In this document: positions 47,077-52,768 of the stretch, in pieces
Position numbering within the stretch: the first letter of the stretch is position 1
Layout: each line of letters begins with the position of its first letter
Source: Pseudomonadota bacterium
GTDB taxonomy: Bacteria; Pseudomonadota; Gammaproteobacteria; Steroidobacterales; Steroidobacteraceae
Assembly (NCBI GenBank): GCA_021790795.1
Contig: JAJYFU010000007.1
Coordinates: forward strand, 1 to 52,768
Length of the DNA: 52,768 nt
Direction: 5' to 3'
Notes under the pieces: model-generated
Databases searched by the model: none
What the model was told of the DNA's origin: nothing
The model's input: only the letters and a program-made list of their open reading frames with translations
Program-made: the position numbers and the translations under genes

Positions 47077-47310
47077 TCAGGCGCCCGGCGGCGCGAAGCT
47101 CGGCACGGACTTCGGCGCCTCGCCATTGACAGCGCCGGCAGCGCGCTGTTCGCGCTTGATCCGCTCGTAAATCTCCTCCCGATGCACCGCCACGTGCTTG
47201 GGCGCATTGATACCGACGCGCACCTGGTTGCCCTTGACGCCGAGCACCGTGATGGTGACGTCGTCCCCGATCATCACGGTCTCGCCGACTCGCCTTGTAA
47301 GAATGAGCAT
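47077..47310 (-). CDS. csrA: Carbon storage regulator CsrA
   Basis: CsrA binds GGA motifs in mRNA leaders and controls translation and stability of metabolic, motility and biofilm messages. The 77-residue product begins [20 protein letters not shown] and has [28 protein letters not shown], with the RNA-binding Arg of VHREEI. The C-terminal tail (after about 57) is longer and Pro/Ala-rich. AGAGGA is the ribosome site and also contains a GGA, so CsrA may repress its own translation. It lies 55 bases beyond the FecR-type gene on the same strand. Confidence 0.97.
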
Positions 47311-47365: not shown

Positions 47366-48394
47366 TCATTGGGGGACGCCCCCCCCCTGCCGATCCGTGG
47401 CTCGGTAACCCAGAACGAACGCTCCGTCCTCGTGAGTGACGGTGAGCGGCTCGATCCGGGCAATACGATCGAGGGTCGCGCCGACGTTGCGTACGCTGAA
47501 CGCTCCACCGATCTGCATGCGGGCCGCACGCGGATCGGCAATGACGATGCGCTGCGCGGTATAGCGGCTCAAATCACTGACGAACGCGGAAAGCGGCTCG
47601 CCGCGGGTCTCGATGATGCCCTGGCGCCAGCGAATCACGTTTAGCGCCCGCGCCGGGTGAACGTCGGCGATCAACCCGACCGGTGAATACTCGATCTGCT
47701 GGTTGGTCGTCAGACGGCGGATCCATGACGGCGTGCGCGCCCCCCCGGACAGCCCCTCCACCGAGACCATCCCGCTGACGACCGTCACCAGCACATCGCC
47801 ATCGGTCTTGCGGTAGACGTCGAACCGCGTCCCGAGCACCTGCACCTCGCTGTGCGCCAGCAGGATCCGGAACGGCCGCGCCGGATCGTGCACCACTTCG
47901 AAAAACACCTCGCCGCGGAGCAATCGCACCTTGCGGTTATCGGGGCTGCCGATCCAGCGCAGACGCGTGTTCGTGTTCAGATATGCGACGCTGCCATCCG
48001 GCAGCACCACGCTGCGGATCTGACCGACCTTCGTGCCGTAGGTGCGCGGCAGATACCCCCGGCCCCACAGCCACAGCCCGCCCGCGGCAACCACCACGAG
48101 CACCGCCGTGGCGGTGACCCCAACGAGCCACAGCGCTCGACCGTCCAGCCTCGCCCGCCGCGGCGCCTCCGCCGCACTCGCAGCCAGCGCGGCCCGCGCG
48201 GGCCCCTTGAGCTCAGCGGCCACATCCAATATCGCGCGTAATTCACTGAATTCCTCGGCATGCAGCGTATCGGCCAACCAGGCCTCGAGAGCACGCTGCC
48301 GCGCGGGTGTCAGCCCTCGGCCCATACGGGTCAGCCACCGCGCCGCCTGAGCCCGCGCGCGCCGCCGCCGATCGAGGAATGCGTCGAAAGTCAA
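47366..48394 (-). CDS. FecR-type anti-sigma factor/signal transducer
   Basis: FecR proteins sit in the inner membrane, hold a FecI-type sigma factor on the cytoplasmic side and receive the signal from a TonB-dependent transducer on the periplasmic side. The 342-residue product has a cytoplasmic N-domain (RAQAARWLTRMGRGLTPARQRALEAWL), a membrane helix (about 89-110), the FecR periplasmic domain (VVLPDGSVAYLNTNTRLRW, VRLLRGEVFFEVVHDPARPF) and a C-terminal STN-like region. The start is a TTG at 48394 that overlaps the sigma gene stop (TTGA), with GGAGGT before it. The pair is coupled. With the STN-bearing receptor 1 kb upstream it forms a complete Fec-type circuit. Confidence 0.92.
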   Translation of the reverse strand: MTFDAFLDRRRRARAQAARWLTRMGRGLTPARQRALEAWLADTLHAEEFSELRAILDVAAELKGPARAALAASAAEAPRRARLDGRALWLVGVTATAVLVVVAAGGLWLWGRGYLPRTYGTKVGQIRSVVLPDGSVAYLNTNTRLRWIGSPDNRKVRLLRGEVFFEVVHDPARPFRILLAHSEVQVLGTRFDVYRKTDGDVLVTVVSGMVSVEGLSGGARTPSWIRRLTTNQQIEYSPVGLIADVHPARALNVIRWRQGIIETRGEPLSAFVSDLSRYTAQRIVIADPRAARMQIGGAFSVRNVGATLDRIARIEPLTVTHEDGAFVLGYRATDRQGGGVPQ

Positions 48395-48960
48395 TCGACC
48401 TCCACCAGATCAATGCCTTGCATCGACAACCTCACGCGACATTGCTTCAGCGCGCGCGTCATTCGCTTGTCCACACGCCGTTCGGAGATCCCCAGCCGCC
48501 GGGCGATTTCCTTGCGCGACTCGCCCTGCACGTGTGCCAGCACGAACACCGTGCGCAACGCAGAGGGCAGCTCGCCGATCACTTGAGCCACGCGCTGCTC
48601 GATCTGCTCGGCCATGACCCGCCGCTCCGGCTCCCCGCGCAGGTCCGGCACCTGCTCCATTCCCGCCGGTCCGCTGATCACCGCGCTCTCGACGCGGCGG
48701 CGGCGCAATTGCATCAGCGCGTATTGGGTCGCGACCTTGAAGAGGATGGCCCGCGGAAACAGCACCTGCTCCGGCCGGTACATCCGATGCAGCTTCTCGT
48801 AGGTGTCCTGAATGGCCTCCCGCGCCAGATCAACCCGGCCAAGCATTTGGGTGAGGTAGGCGAGCAGCTGCGCCTCATGTGTACGGCACAGCTGGTCGAA
48901 GAACGCGTCCGCTCCCCCGGATCTGGGAAACCGCTTGATTTCGCCCAATGGCTTATCCAC
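48391..48960 (-). CDS. FecI-type ECF sigma factor
   Basis: The 189-residue product has the two sigma regions of ECF factors: sigma-2 (about 20-90, LAYLTQMLGRVDLAREAIQDTYEKL) and sigma-4 with a helix-turn-helix (about 120-180, LRTVFVLAHVQGESRKEIARRLGISERRVDKRM). It lacks other sigma domains. The GTG start at 48960 has AAGGA 5 bases before it. It overlaps the FecR gene. Expected targets are the TonB-dependent receptor at 49329-52331 and perhaps the lasso genes, by analogy with FecI systems; I cannot show a shared promoter motif by eye. Confidence 0.93.
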   Translation of the reverse strand: MDKPLGEIKRFPRSGGADAFFDQLCRTHEAQLLAYLTQMLGRVDLAREAIQDTYEKLHRMYRPEQVLFPRAILFKVATQYALMQLRRRRVESAVISGPAGMEQVPDLRGEPERRVMAEQIEQRVAQVIGELPSALRTVFVLAHVQGESRKEIARRLGISERRVDKRMTRALKQCRVRLSMQGIDLVEVD

Positions 48961-49054
48961 TCCCTTCCTTACCCATTAAGATGCTCGAGATTCACTTTGC
49001 CCCCCCGGCAGTGCAAAAATATTGGCTCGGACTGCCGGTCGCGCTACGATGCGA

Positions 49055-49060: not shown

Positions 49061-49129
49061 CCGCCCGCTCGCGAAGCGCGCGGAAAGATCGTCTTGCGAT
49101 GCGCAGTGTGCCGACCCGGAGAAGCCATC

Positions 49130-49306
49130 ATGAACACACCGGCGTGCGAGGAAGGGCTCGAACCGGCCGGTTCCGCCGGGGCGGCCCCGGCGGAACCCTT
49201 GATCGAGCCAGAGCCCGAACTGGTCGAGCTCGGCAAGATATCCCAGACCCAGGGCGGGCTACTGGGCGCGAAATACGACTCGGCGGTCGGCTGGCAGTAT
49301 TACTGA
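49130..49306 (+). CDS. Lasso peptide precursor (leader plus 17-residue core)
   Basis: The 58-residue product starts at ATG 49130, with GGAG 8 bases upstream. Residues 1-41 look like a leader: acidic, Pro/Ala-rich, with P29-x-L31-x3-G35, the PxLxxxG element known to be read by lasso RRE proteins, and Thr40 at the penultimate leader position. Residues 42-58, GGLLGAKYDSAVGWQYY, fit a class II lasso core: Gly at position 1, Asp at position 9 for a nine-residue macrolactam ring, then an eight-residue tail with Trp14, Tyr16 and Tyr17 as possible plugs. The leader lacks the usual Tyr before PxL. It faces the TonB receptor gene 22 bases away and is divergent from the sigma factor. Cleavage after Gly42, giving an eight-residue ring, is less likely. 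Confidence 0.85.
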   Translation: MNTPACEEGLEPAGSAGAAPAEPLIEPEPELVELGKISQTQGGLLGAKYDSAVGWQYY

Positions 49307-49328: not shown

Positions 49329-52300
49329 TCACCAGCGCTGCGAGATCTGCAGGCTCAGCACGCGGCCGAGTGCCTGAACGTTGCCGATGTCATAGCCAAA
49401 TTCGCTGTCGACGAACGGCGGCGACCGGTTGAAAACATTCACGGCGTTGAGCCAGACGGTGGTCTGCCCGAAACGATTCGGACTTAGCCTTTCGCTCGCG
49501 AACACGTCGACCGTGGTCCAGGCACTTACTGCCGGCACGAGCGTGCTGGCCGGATTGCGGTACGGTCCGGTGTAATTGAGGGCCAGATTGATGGCCGGGC
49601 CGGGCGCAGTGCGGCCATGCGCGCACCAGCCGGCCGTACCGCGCAAACGCAGCGACAGCGGGTTCCCGACGGTATTCAGGATGCTCACCGAAGGAGAGGT
49701 GGGCGTCAGCGCCTGATCGAACCGCAGCACGTCGGTGCCCCGCAGTCCAAAGTGAAAATGTCCCCACCGGGTCACGAGCCGCTCCCGGGCCGCGATGTCG
49801 AGGCCGCGAGTCCGGGTGGCCGAGAGATTGGCCAGGCGTAGATCCACGATCGCGGCCGGATGGCTCGCAAGACAGGTCGCGACGGGGCCGATGAACTGCC
49901 GGCTCTCGCAGATGGCCTCGATTTCCGCCGGTGTGGGCGCGCGGTTGATCACCGCCGCCCACTCGTTGCCGTCCTGCAGAACCGCGAACGGGTCGTGGGC
50001 CGCGGGCTGCTCTATCCGGTTCCAGTAGGCGATGTCGTAGAAGGTGAGCGACAGCTGTGCCCCGCTCCATGGCGTCAAATCGAAGCCCGCGGTCCAGGTG
50101 CGCGCGGTCTCATTGGCGAGATTGGGATTGGAGCCCTGCTCGGCCAGTACCAGCGAACTGCCGGTTGAGGACCGCGGATCCGGCACGACCGTCAACCCCG
50201 ACACGTTCTGCGATGTGTCGTACAGATCGTCGAGTGTCGGTGCGCGGTACGAGCGGCCCCAGCTGGTGCGCAGCTTCAGCCAGTCGGAGGCGATCCACTC
50301 CAGCCGCGCCATTGGATTGAATGTGCCGCCAAAGTCACTGTAATGATCGTAGCGGCCGGCAATGTCGAGTGCCAGTCGCGCCGGGCCCTGAGCGTCGCGT
50401 CCACCGCCGAGCAGCGGCACGTGCAGCTGCGAATACGCCGAGAAAATCCGCCGTCCGTAGCGCTCAGATGCGATCGCCCCGCGTGGACTGCTGGGCTGCG
50501 GCACTTCCAGCGCCAGAGTCTCGGTGCGCCATTCCAGCCCGACGGCGAGCTTGGCTTCCCCGGCAGGCACGCGCAGCAGCGGCCCGTTGGCGACCAGATC
50601 GCTCGATTCCAGGGTCGAGGTCGAGCGGCGGCGGTAATCCTGGCCGATAGCCGCCAATGTCGCCGGGTTGTTATCCGATCCGTACCCGAATGCATTGAAG
50701 GCGGTGGCCGGATTGGAATCGGCAAGTGCCGCGGCGAGGTTTGCCGGATTGGTGACTCCGTACTCGTCGGCCCGCAGGTACTGCTTGCCGAACGACTCGC
50801 TCGCGGTCAACTGCCAACCCCGACCGAGCTGCGCCGTGGCCCCGACCGTTCCATCGTATACACGCGAAAGGGCGGCGAACCGTGTCGGCCCGAGATCGTG
50901 GAGAAAGCTGTAGGCGACGAGCGTATAGGGGACGGACGGATAGGGATTGACGAAGTACGGGTTGCTCGGGGGCACCTGCAATACGGCATCGTTGGGCAGG
51001 GTGCTCTGGTTGACGTCACGCTGGGCGTAGCGGACCTGGACAAACAGCCCCACTCCGGCACCCACGCGCTGGCTCGCCGAGCCGTACACCTCGTTGGCGA
51101 CCCGCTCGGGAAAGATCTGGAAGTCCGCGAACGGGTTCTGCAGGTTGATGCGTGTGGCCAGAGCGGCCGGCGTGAGCGCCGTGCCGTTCTGTCCGCTCGG
51201 GATGCCGTACGCCGGCTGGAGCGTCAGGGGATTGAGAATATTGCCGGGATCGGTGTAGTAGCTGTCGTAATTCGCGCCGCCGAAGGGCGTCTTGTCGGCG
51301 TTCGCGGCATAGGCTCGGGCGCTTGCGGCCAGCGGTGTGGCATCGGTGTACTCGTAAGCGATCATGCCGTGCCCGCCCCGCCAGTGCGTGCCGAACAGCT
51401 GCCCAAACATCCATTCGCTGCGCCCGTTGATCGCGCTCCCGTAGCGCACCAGCGTTTCCGCGCCCTGGAATCCGTTGCGCATCATGATGTTGACGACCCC
51501 CGCCACGGCGTCCGCGCCGTAAAGGGCCGAGGCGCCGTCGGGCAGCACCTCGATGCGCTTCACGGCGATCCACGGGATGGTCGATACATCGACGAACCCG
51601 CCGGTCAGCCCGCCGAGGGGCTGGCGGTGGCCGTCCACCAGCACTAGCGTGGCCCCTACGCCGAGACCGCGCAGATTGATGCCCGCGCCATCCTCGACGT
51701 TATTGTCGACGTTCAGGTCCTCGCGCGGCCCGTTCAGTGAGATCAATGGCAGAGCGTACAGCGCGTCGGCGACGCTCGGGTAATCGGTCTGCTCCAGCTG
51801 CGTACGGCCCACGTTGATGATGGGCGCGGTGGCCGTTCGCACGCCGCGGATCAAGCTGCCGGTGACGTCGACCGGCTGCAGCAGGGCATCTGTCTGATCT
51901 GGTTGCGGATTTATCCGGCGTGGGGCCGTATGCGCCGCGCGCACCCCGCGCGGATGCGACGGAATGGGCGGCGGTGCCGGGCGGATGATGACGGCATGCG
52001 CCGAATCGAACGTGAACGTCAGGCCCGTGCCTCGCAACATGCGCGAGAGCGCCGCCGAACTCGTCAGCGCCCCGTGAACCGCGTGCGTACGCAGCGTGAG
52101 CACTTGCGGCGTCGCTGCGTATATGGCCCGCACACCGGACTGGCGATAGAACTCGAGCACCGCCTGAGGCAGCGGTTGAGCGGGCAGATTGAATACGGTA
52201 ACCGGGCTCTCCGCCCGCGCGTACGGCCCGACGCACAGCAGCGTCAACGCCATGCAAAGCGCTCCCCCTGTCCGCCGCACGCCGCGACGCCCCCGATTCC

Positions 52301-52331
52301 GGTCCCCGGCCTCTTGGTCGTTCTGATCCAT
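49329..52331 (-). CDS. TonB-dependent receptor/transducer with STN domain
   Basis: The 1000-residue outer-membrane protein has a signal peptide (about 22-41, ALCMALTLLCVGPYARA). An STN domain follows (about 43-115, VTVFNLPAQPLPQAVLEFYRQSGV), which signals to FecR proteins. Then come a plug domain (about 150-290, VADALYALPLISLNG, INLRGLGVGATLVLVDGHRQPLGG and RIEVLPDGASALYGADAVAGVVNI) and a 22-strand barrel ending in an aromatic residue. The barrel resembles those of Caulobacter- and sphingomonad-type receptors found beside lasso peptide genes. Its stop lies 22 bases from the lasso precursor stop, and its start is 12 bases after the cyclase gene, so receptor and cyclase are probably one transcript. 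A siderophore or other ligand is the alternative. Confidence 0.93.
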   Translation of the reverse strand: MDQNDQEAGDRNRGRRGVRRTGGALCMALTLLCVGPYARAESPVTVFNLPAQPLPQAVLEFYRQSGVRAIYAATPQVLTLRTHAVHGALTSSAALSRMLRGTGLTFTFDSAHAVIIRPAPPPIPSHPRGVRAAHTAPRRINPQPDQTDALLQPVDVTGSLIRGVRTATAPIINVGRTQLEQTDYPSVADALYALPLISLNGPREDLNVDNNVEDGAGINLRGLGVGATLVLVDGHRQPLGGLTGGFVDVSTIPWIAVKRIEVLPDGASALYGADAVAGVVNIMMRNGFQGAETLVRYGSAINGRSEWMFGQLFGTHWRGGHGMIAYEYTDATPLAASARAYAANADKTPFGGANYDSYYTDPGNILNPLTLQPAYGIPSGQNGTALTPAALATRINLQNPFADFQIFPERVANEVYGSASQRVGAGVGLFVQVRYAQRDVNQSTLPNDAVLQVPPSNPYFVNPYPSVPYTLVAYSFLHDLGPTRFAALSRVYDGTVGATAQLGRGWQLTASESFGKQYLRADEYGVTNPANLAAALADSNPATAFNAFGYGSDNNPATLAAIGQDYRRRSTSTLESSDLVANGPLLRVPAGEAKLAVGLEWRTETLALEVPQPSSPRGAIASERYGRRIFSAYSQLHVPLLGGGRDAQGPARLALDIAGRYDHYSDFGGTFNPMARLEWIASDWLKLRTSWGRSYRAPTLDDLYDTSQNVSGLTVVPDPRSSTGSSLVLAEQGSNPNLANETARTWTAGFDLTPWSGAQLSLTFYDIAYWNRIEQPAAHDPFAVLQDGNEWAAVINRAPTPAEIEAICESRQFIGPVATCLASHPAAIVDLRLANLSATRTRGLDIAARERLVTRWGHFHFGLRGTDVLRFDQALTPTSPSVSILNTVGNPLSLRLRGTAGWCAHGRTAPGPAINLALNYTGPYRNPASTLVPAVSAWTTVDVFASERLSPNRFGQTTVWLNAVNVFNRSPPFVDSEFGYDIGNVQALGRVLSLQISQRW

Positions 52332-52343
52332 GATCCCTGCCGC

Positions 52344-52768
52344 TCAAGTCACAGTCTGCCATACACCGGGGCGCCGTGACGAGTCCCGGGCATGCCAACG
52401 CTCGAGCCAGGACTCGATGCAAGCGTATTCGATCAACTCTCCAGACTGAGTCTCGATTTCCGCGCGGCCCGCGAGCGCCCGCTCCACCGCGGATCGATCG
52501 AGCAGGCCGTTCGCGACCAGCATCCCATCGAGCAGCAGCTCGCGCAGCAGCGCGCGGTTGCGCTCCACCGTCAGGCGCATGTGCATCTCGATTCCGCCTT
52601 TATTGCGCCGATTGCGGATCTGCGGCGGCAGCGCGTCGTAGAAAGCCTGCCGCACCAGCGCGCGATCCCAGCCGCCTGTGGTCAGCACATCGACCGGTAT
52701 GCGCAGACACAACTCCATCAGCGGTTGGGAGAGCAGCGGCGCCAACCTCTCAGGATCTCCCGGCACAC
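52344..52768 (-). CDS. Asparagine synthetase-like lasso peptide cyclase, C-terminal fragment
   Basis: The gene leaves the window at its 5' end; the last 141 or so codons are visible. PLLSQPLMELCLRIPVDVL, GGWDRALVRQAFYDALPPQI, RNRRNKGGIEMHM and the helical end (LLDGMLVANGLLDR, IEYACIESWLERW) match the end of the synthetase domain of AsnB-type proteins. They are closest, from memory of the family, to lasso macrolactam synthetases (LasC/McjC). Such enzymes adenylate the ring Asp or Glu and close the ring on the core N-terminus. The link to the precursor at 49130 supports this. A housekeeping asparagine synthetase is the alternative. The catalytic ATP-binding part is outside the window. Confidence 0.8.
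   Translation of the reverse strand, partial: VPGDPERLAPLLSQPLMELCLRIPVDVLTTGGWDRALVRQAFYDALPPQIRNRRNKGGIEMHMRLTVERNRALLRELLLDGMLVANGLLDRSAVERALAGRAEIETQSGELIEYACIESWLERWHARDSSRRPGVWQTVT

Follow-up and report, generated by a model that had tools for sequence, protein, structure and literature searches.

The window, that is, the whole stretch of 52,768 nucleotides analysed here, is an entire contig (C107) of a genome (G000) assembled in 186 contigs and 95% complete. Close to its right end lies a small gene, A, which very probably encodes a lasso peptide precursor; a gene for a TonB-dependent receptor is convergent with it, and genes for a FecI-type sigma factor and a FecR-type anti-sigma factor lie divergently on its other side. 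The contig is cut within a candidate cyclase gene, C, and the remainder of this gene opens another contig of the same genome, C60. The features are:

47077-47310, minus strand: csrA-like gene (named by eye), a neighbour where contigs reach, probably outside the locus
47366-48394, minus strand: FecR-type anti-sigma factor (Pfam FecR, 74.5 bits, cut-off 24)
48391-48960, minus strand: FecI-type ECF sigma factor, divergent from A (TIGR02937, 79.1 bits, cut-off 42.9)
48979-49006, minus strand: G-run-N-GCATCT site facing fecI, possible ECF-type promoter (consensus match only)
49118-49121, plus strand: GGAG, probable ribosome site of A (read from the sequence)
49130-49306, plus strand: probable lasso precursor gene A, 58 codons plus stop (homologue in 27/58 genomes of the genus)
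49130-49252, plus strand: leader of A, 41 residues, with Thr(-2) at 49247-49249 (invariant in 19/19 precursors)
49253-49303, plus strand: core of A, GGLLGAKYDSAVGWQYY, with Gly1 at 49253-49255 and Asp9 at 49277-49279
49329-52331, minus strand: TonB-dependent receptor, 1000 aa, convergent with A (Pfam TonB_dep_Rec_b-barrel, 112.9 bits; Plug, 61.6 bits)
51975-52109, minus strand: STN (signalling-type) domain, receptor residues 75-119 (Pfam STN, 28.6 bits, barely over the cut-off of 28.4)
52344-52766, minus strand: C-terminal part of the putative cyclase C, cut by the contig end (Pfam Asn_synthase, over the cut-off of 21)
G000:C60:1-1419, minus strand: rest of C, 473 aa, open (Pfam Asn_synthase, over the cut-off of 21)

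The translation of A consists of a leader, MNTPACEEGLEPAGSAGAAPAEPLIEPEPELVELGKISQTQ, followed by the core, GGLLGAKYDSAVGWQYY, with Thr(-2), Gly1 and Asp9 being residues 40, 42 and 50. A first-pass annotation of this DNA had described a 58-codon frame with a ribosome site, Thr at position -2, Gly1 and Asp9; the frame was confirmed, all three residues were read at these places, and the GGAG is plausible as a ribosome site. The PxLxxxG leader pattern reported there is present in the window precursor and does not extend to the family, in which the Pro is not conserved and the Gly is replaced by Glu or Asp in three of 19 aligned precursors (alignment A1). The mass of the cyclised core, derived by hand as about 1828.88 Da (M+H about 1829.89), is reproduced by the computed monoisotopic value of 1828.878 Da ([M+H]+ 1829.886). 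No sigma-70 sites or terminators were detected in a scan of the surroundings of A, and searches of plasmids and viral contigs yielded no match to A.

Homologues of A at E < 0.01 are restricted to the window's own genus (200 genomes of the family searched), and an order-wide search yielded 20 matches among 396 genomes, all within one of 72 genera. In the genus, 29 of 58 genomes matched A at E 0.01; two of these were dropped after reading, the match in G201 being a different precursor and that in G211 holding stops, which leaves family members in 27 genomes. The two nearest homologues show 93% and 80% identity, dN/dS of A among the three closest is 0.25-0.42, and the core of the window precursor recurs unchanged in L089 and G189. 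Met1, Thr(-2), Gly1, Gly2, Gly5 and Gly13 are invariant in A1, and the conservation of Thr(-2), Gly1 and Asp9, on which the first-pass reading had been made to depend, is 19/19, 19/19 and 17/19, respectively, the two precursors without Asp9 coming from genomes with a broken C (G080 and G111). Other cores of the family are GGILGLKYDTGVGWQYY, GGIFGYKVDSGLGWQYY, GGLGGNKYDSGYGWQFW and GGWLGSKYDAGAGFTVY. Moreover, the six frames of the window contain a single instance of the leader motif [LIVM]xxLGx[IVL]Sx(1,2)TxG, and 100 order-1 Markov resamplings contain none; the presence of the family in 27 of 58 genomes is the stronger argument that A is not a product of chance.

The window precursor exceeds the cut-off of no NCBIfam or Pfam precursor family model, scoring 13.7 bits with the benenodin precursor model NF033522 (cut-off 33). 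For all 19 precursors, the best E-values of lasso models are 0.0033 for burhizin (one member) and 0.015 for benenodin (six members) in NCBIfam, and 0.037 for subterisin (three members) in Pfam. A adds a precursor family not recognised by the NCBIfam and Pfam models tested.

The maturation genes are completed on contig C60, which opens with the rest of C, followed upstream by B (239 aa). The two parts of C score 54.7 and 30.9 bits with Pfam Asn_synthase (PF00733; cut-off 21), and the two contigs share no overlap. In L089 (Proteobacteria MAG TL2-1.bin3) a single codon separates the two parts of C within one open frame, and one contig carries the whole order, second sigma factor, B, C, receptor, convergent A, FecI, FecR; hence the window end and C60 are very probably neighbours, separated by a gap of about one base. 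A lasso B gene, whose absence beyond the window end would have counted against the first-pass reading, is thus found in the same genome: its product scores 71.3 bits with NCBIfam lasso_biosyn_B2 (NF033537; cut-off 33) and 58.5 bits with Pfam Transglut_core3 (PF13471; cut-off 26). All 14 aligned copies of B share a Cys, a His and an Asp, the candidate catalytic residues; the N-terminal part is partly conserved in the alignment and gives no RRE or PqqD match in Pfam at E 0.1.

All 14 aligned copies of C contain the SGGLDS motif and start with [VM]FRY, without the N-terminal Cys that is a feature of glutamine-dependent AsnB. The full-length copy from L089 scores 56.9 bits with the albusnodin/ikarugamycin macrolactam cyclase model (cut-off 300), 48.1 with asparagine synthase (267) and 39.5 with lasso cyclase (525). 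As C reaches the curated cut-off of no cyclase model tested, we regard it as a divergent cyclase. The C of a second, isopeptidase-bearing cluster in a relative is also below the lasso cyclase cut-off (59.3 against 525), and the cut-off of the cyclase model was not treated as a defining feature of lasso clusters. Searches of PDB sequences with B and the C part yielded no match up to E 1. The best score, with all models under cut-off, falls to the albusnodin/ikarugamycin model, and housekeeping AsnB, the grouping that the first-pass annotation had considered damaging, was rejected as the better reading for C, though every cyclase score is under its cut-off. The lasso peptide reading of A is supported by the presence of the lasso B gene, the conservation of Thr(-2), Gly1 and Asp9, and a cyclase without a firm grouping with AsnB. 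Another genome of the genus, G201, carries five cyclase genes of lasso type on L170 (G201:C1) and further contigs; their identity to the query C is 31-40%, and two of them are oppositely oriented within 10 kb.

The states of the precursor and of C are linked. C is unbroken, as far as assembled, in 20 of the 27 precursor-bearing genomes, counting as unbroken the genes spread over two contigs (G000, G163 and G191) and those with a stop near residue 604, beyond the conserved part (G119, G102 and G191). Thr(-2), Gly1 and Asp9 are present in all 20; G194, with no C found in a genome 77% complete, was excluded from the comparison. In the remaining six genomes C is broken and the precursor is altered in 6/6, a count that is partly post hoc, as G207 was classed as altered after its locus had been viewed. 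G133 and G209 have a common frameshift at the start of the core; Asp9 is lost in G111 and G080 (QCA and TYG). In G080, B is broken as well as C, and in G111 it is open, yet retains only 42% identity. Asp9 is retained in G169, whose precursor ends with GWH, two residues shorter than in its relatives, and in G207, where Gly2 is replaced by Ala and the tail is WHCY. The Fisher test of precursor state against C state gives p 4e-6 for events that are not independent, shared ancestry being uncorrected. This pattern supports the suggestion that Asp9 and the peptide as a whole are under selection only as long as the enzymes work.

FecR, FecI and the STN-bearing receptor together constitute a Fec-type signalling gene set, with the divergent FecI preceding A. 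In the main group of genomes the order is B-C-receptor, A convergent with the receptor, FecI-FecR, and then a CsrA-like and a GGDEF-like gene (the last two named by eye). Five genomes (G185, G175, G139, G197 and G215) form a split group, where A and the receptor are on one contig and B, C, FecI and FecR on another (281 and 62 kb in G139), with C running directly into FecI. As the main order is also seen in G145, an early branch of the tree rooted with a distant receptor, and in G212 (two contigs; not in the tree), the split layout is perhaps derived from it.

A G-run followed by 15-19 bases and GCATCT faces fecI in every one of the 19 scanned loci where FecI adjoins A. The fecI genes of the split group have no such site upstream, nor was the pattern detected ahead of A, B or the receptor; by its spacing the site possibly represents an ECF promoter, with no link to A. 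A second ECF sigma factor is encoded directly upstream of B in the closest relatives of the window. Its 68% homologue in G102 adjoins FecR of a second lasso cluster, and it may therefore be a leftover of a cluster of that second type (L009:2391-3419, on G000:C60, and L101:21-548).

No ABC exporter was matched beside A, B and C on the window or C60. In nine genomes (G018, G163, G111, G080, G207, G211, G191, G119 and G102) the gene immediately upstream of B, or of its remnant, encodes an MsbA-like ABC transporter, and a 57% homologue of this transporter in the window genome lies on a short contig (L159:1816-3537, G000:C39) that no other lasso query matched. Upstream of the transporter, several relatives have a 378-aa protein (L032:16218-17354, L036:943-2031) without an NCBIfam match at E 1e-10, which by eye resembles a REP-associated transposase.

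An isopeptidase elsewhere in the window genome was looked for in two ways. The best match to NF033523 is 81.4 of 400 bits, below the cut-off, and 11 of 14 control genomes also gave matches, none over the cut-off; an isopeptidase-like protein of a relative, itself given only 58 bits by NF033523, matched 11 of 58 genomes and nothing in G000. A genus-wide NF033523 search at E 1e-60 gave no match, controls included, and carries no evidential weight. The isopeptidase-like genes of G119, G102 and others are part of a second lasso cluster of a different kind close by. Those of G038 and G163 lie on contigs without a detected second B, so that in these species an isopeptidase acting from elsewhere is possible. 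Second clusters were observed near the first in sibling species (L103:3609-12746, L101:959-9428 and L102:4026-10963), with precursors such as MQYLGNVST[QE]TKG (L101, L103), an isopeptidase-like gene and a receptor of their own.

The receptor is distributed more widely than the peptide. Orthologues (at least 53% identity) are present in 30 of 58 genomes, that is, in all 27 with A and in G181, G204 and G160, which have none; four further genomes have receptors of 36-39% identity only. G181 has the receptor, FecI, FecR and the transporter at a locus that no longer contains A, B and C. G204 has no A between FecI and the receptor, and was classed as a non-producer on the missing A and on no C being found in a 75% complete genome, its contig being too short to judge B and C at the locus. 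G160 has also lost A, B and C from the locus, and its receptor is without about residues 65-304. Together with the six genomes with a broken C, these are the nine non-producers, which fall into five lineages among producers in the receptor tree. Eight of the nine have an uninterrupted receptor gene within the limits of the assembly, which in G080, G207 and G169 spreads it over two contigs each.

The dN/dS values of non-producer receptors are 0.289 for G133-G209, 0.267 for G111-G080, 0.289 and 0.317 for two comparisons with the G207 parts, and 0.217 for G204-G160 despite the shortened receptor of G160, against 0.132-0.225 for five producer pairs; for G133-G209 the values of FecI and FecR are 0.14 and 0.23. 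Pairwise estimates average the time before and after the loss, except for the shared loss in G133 and G209 with their common frameshift. Constraint in non-producers is thus slightly below that of producers in most comparisons, yet clear, indicating that their receptors are still under purifying selection. As five of the nine (G133, G080, G111, G181 and G160) still carry B and C of a different lasso type, they are non-producers of this peptide and not necessarily of lasso peptides in general. The receptor and signalling genes mostly persist in relatives that no longer make the peptide, which suggests that its purpose is to be sensed or imported.

The evidence for a new lasso precursor family with a variant type of cluster is strong; the mechanism of its use we infer from the genes, their order, conservation and joint decay. 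B, encoded on C60, would cut off the leader after the Thr-Gln pair, and C would use ATP to activate the side chain of Asp9 and join it to the amine of Gly1. The predicted product is a nine-residue Gly1-Asp9 ring threaded by the tail SAVGWQYY. The peptide would be exported and act outside the cell, where the neighbouring TonB-dependent receptor with its STN domain, together with FecR and FecI, would recognise it for signalling or import, in the style of siderophore cell-surface signalling.

Overall, the lasso peptide serving as the ligand of the neighbouring receptor is, with good probability, the best explanation of the locus; the chances of the receptor-ligand step, taken by itself, are about even. 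In favour of the explanation as a whole, A stays beside the receptor in the split group, with B, C, FecI and FecR elsewhere; against it, C is under every cut-off, the upstream site faces fecI only, and the receptor could carry another substrate. The last point leads to a rather improbable alternative, in which the receptor-FecIR module imports an unrelated nutrient and the peptide is only a modulator or carrier, so that its loss is tolerated. It agrees with the persistence of the receptor and FecIR without A, B and C in G181, and for isopeptidase-linked lasso peptides a part in carrying cargo, in the manner of siderophores, has been put forward (PMC9266682, PMC11006600); the continued pairing of A with the receptor where B, C and FecIR are elsewhere argues against it. 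The peptide could also be an antibiotic, the receptor serving another substrate (e.g., a siderophore) or being the route by which rivals are hit. An ABC transporter beside B is seen in antibiotic lasso clusters, and the MsbA-like transporter has this position in the nine genomes listed above; moreover, FhuA is the entry route of microcin J25 (PMC11006600). However, at the locus on the window and C60 it is a sigma factor that stands upstream of B, though the transporter homologue is present on C39, and a receptor for a toxin would be a cost after the loss of production, yet eight of nine non-producers retain it. We consider the antibiotic role unlikely.

Doubts about the product itself weigh less. 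C scores higher with the albusnodin/ikarugamycin-type model than with the lasso cyclase model, a point in favour of B and C making a branched-cyclic (unthreaded) or otherwise different macrolactam. However, albusnodin is itself counted as a lasso peptide, and B together with Thr(-2), Gly1 and Asp9 is the set of a lasso peptide, which makes a different macrolactam very improbable. A is short and has no family of its own over a cut-off, as a chance frame or a decayed remnant might; given the homologues in 27 of 58 genomes, the low dN/dS in the three closest and the open B and C in the same genome, this reading is hardly credible, and a chance frame was rejected on conservation across the genus.

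Returning to the peptide as the ligand of the receptor, non-producers may use it through the receptor that they have retained; siderophore non-producers likewise stop making the ligand and keep the receptor. Tentatively, and with the balance somewhat against it, the peptide could be seen as a shared extracellular ligand, with lineages repeatedly becoming receivers that keep the receptor and FecI-FecR, and with a precursor-receptor pair movable apart from the maturation enzymes. One genus holds producers, receptor-bearing non-producers and one genome with a broken receptor side by side. Among the matches listed in searches of the open-access literature, neither the precursor family of the window nor receptor-retaining lasso non-producers were found, and GWQYY gave no matches.

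Known isopeptidase-linked clusters place A in front of the enzymes. In the window, A is convergent with the receptor, which separates it from B and C, and the genome differs further in that no isopeptidase was found. The likeness to these clusters (astexin, benenodin and sphingopyxin type) consists in A, B and C being accompanied by a TonB-dependent receptor and a sigma/anti-sigma pair (PMC9266682). Isopeptidase clusters are described as nearly constant in make-up, with a GntR regulator and a precursor, an isopeptidase and a TonB-dependent transporter, and a sigma/anti-sigma pair (PMC12670498, PMC9266682, PMC11006600, PMC13352647 and PMC11637429), and a review calls the function of their lasso peptides enigmatic (PMC9266682). 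The family described here makes the question of the lasso ligand directly testable with defined peptides and receptors. Capistruin is a Gly1-Asp9 lasso peptide with a nine-residue ring, and the window core resembles it and other Gly1-Asp9 lasso peptides in its predicted ring. Metanodin, from a Steroidobacteraceae-like soil metagenome, shares the origin from an uncultured gammaproteobacterium, Thr(-2) and a precursor gene missed by the usual annotation tool, whereas its core begins with Asn and its cluster contains an isopeptidase (PMC12670498). Finally, as in Fec/Fox cell-surface signalling (PMC11637429), an STN-bearing receptor, a FecR-type anti-sigma factor and a FecI-type ECF sigma factor are combined in one locus, with the difference that the presumed ligand here is a ribosomally made lasso peptide whose gene belongs to the locus itself.
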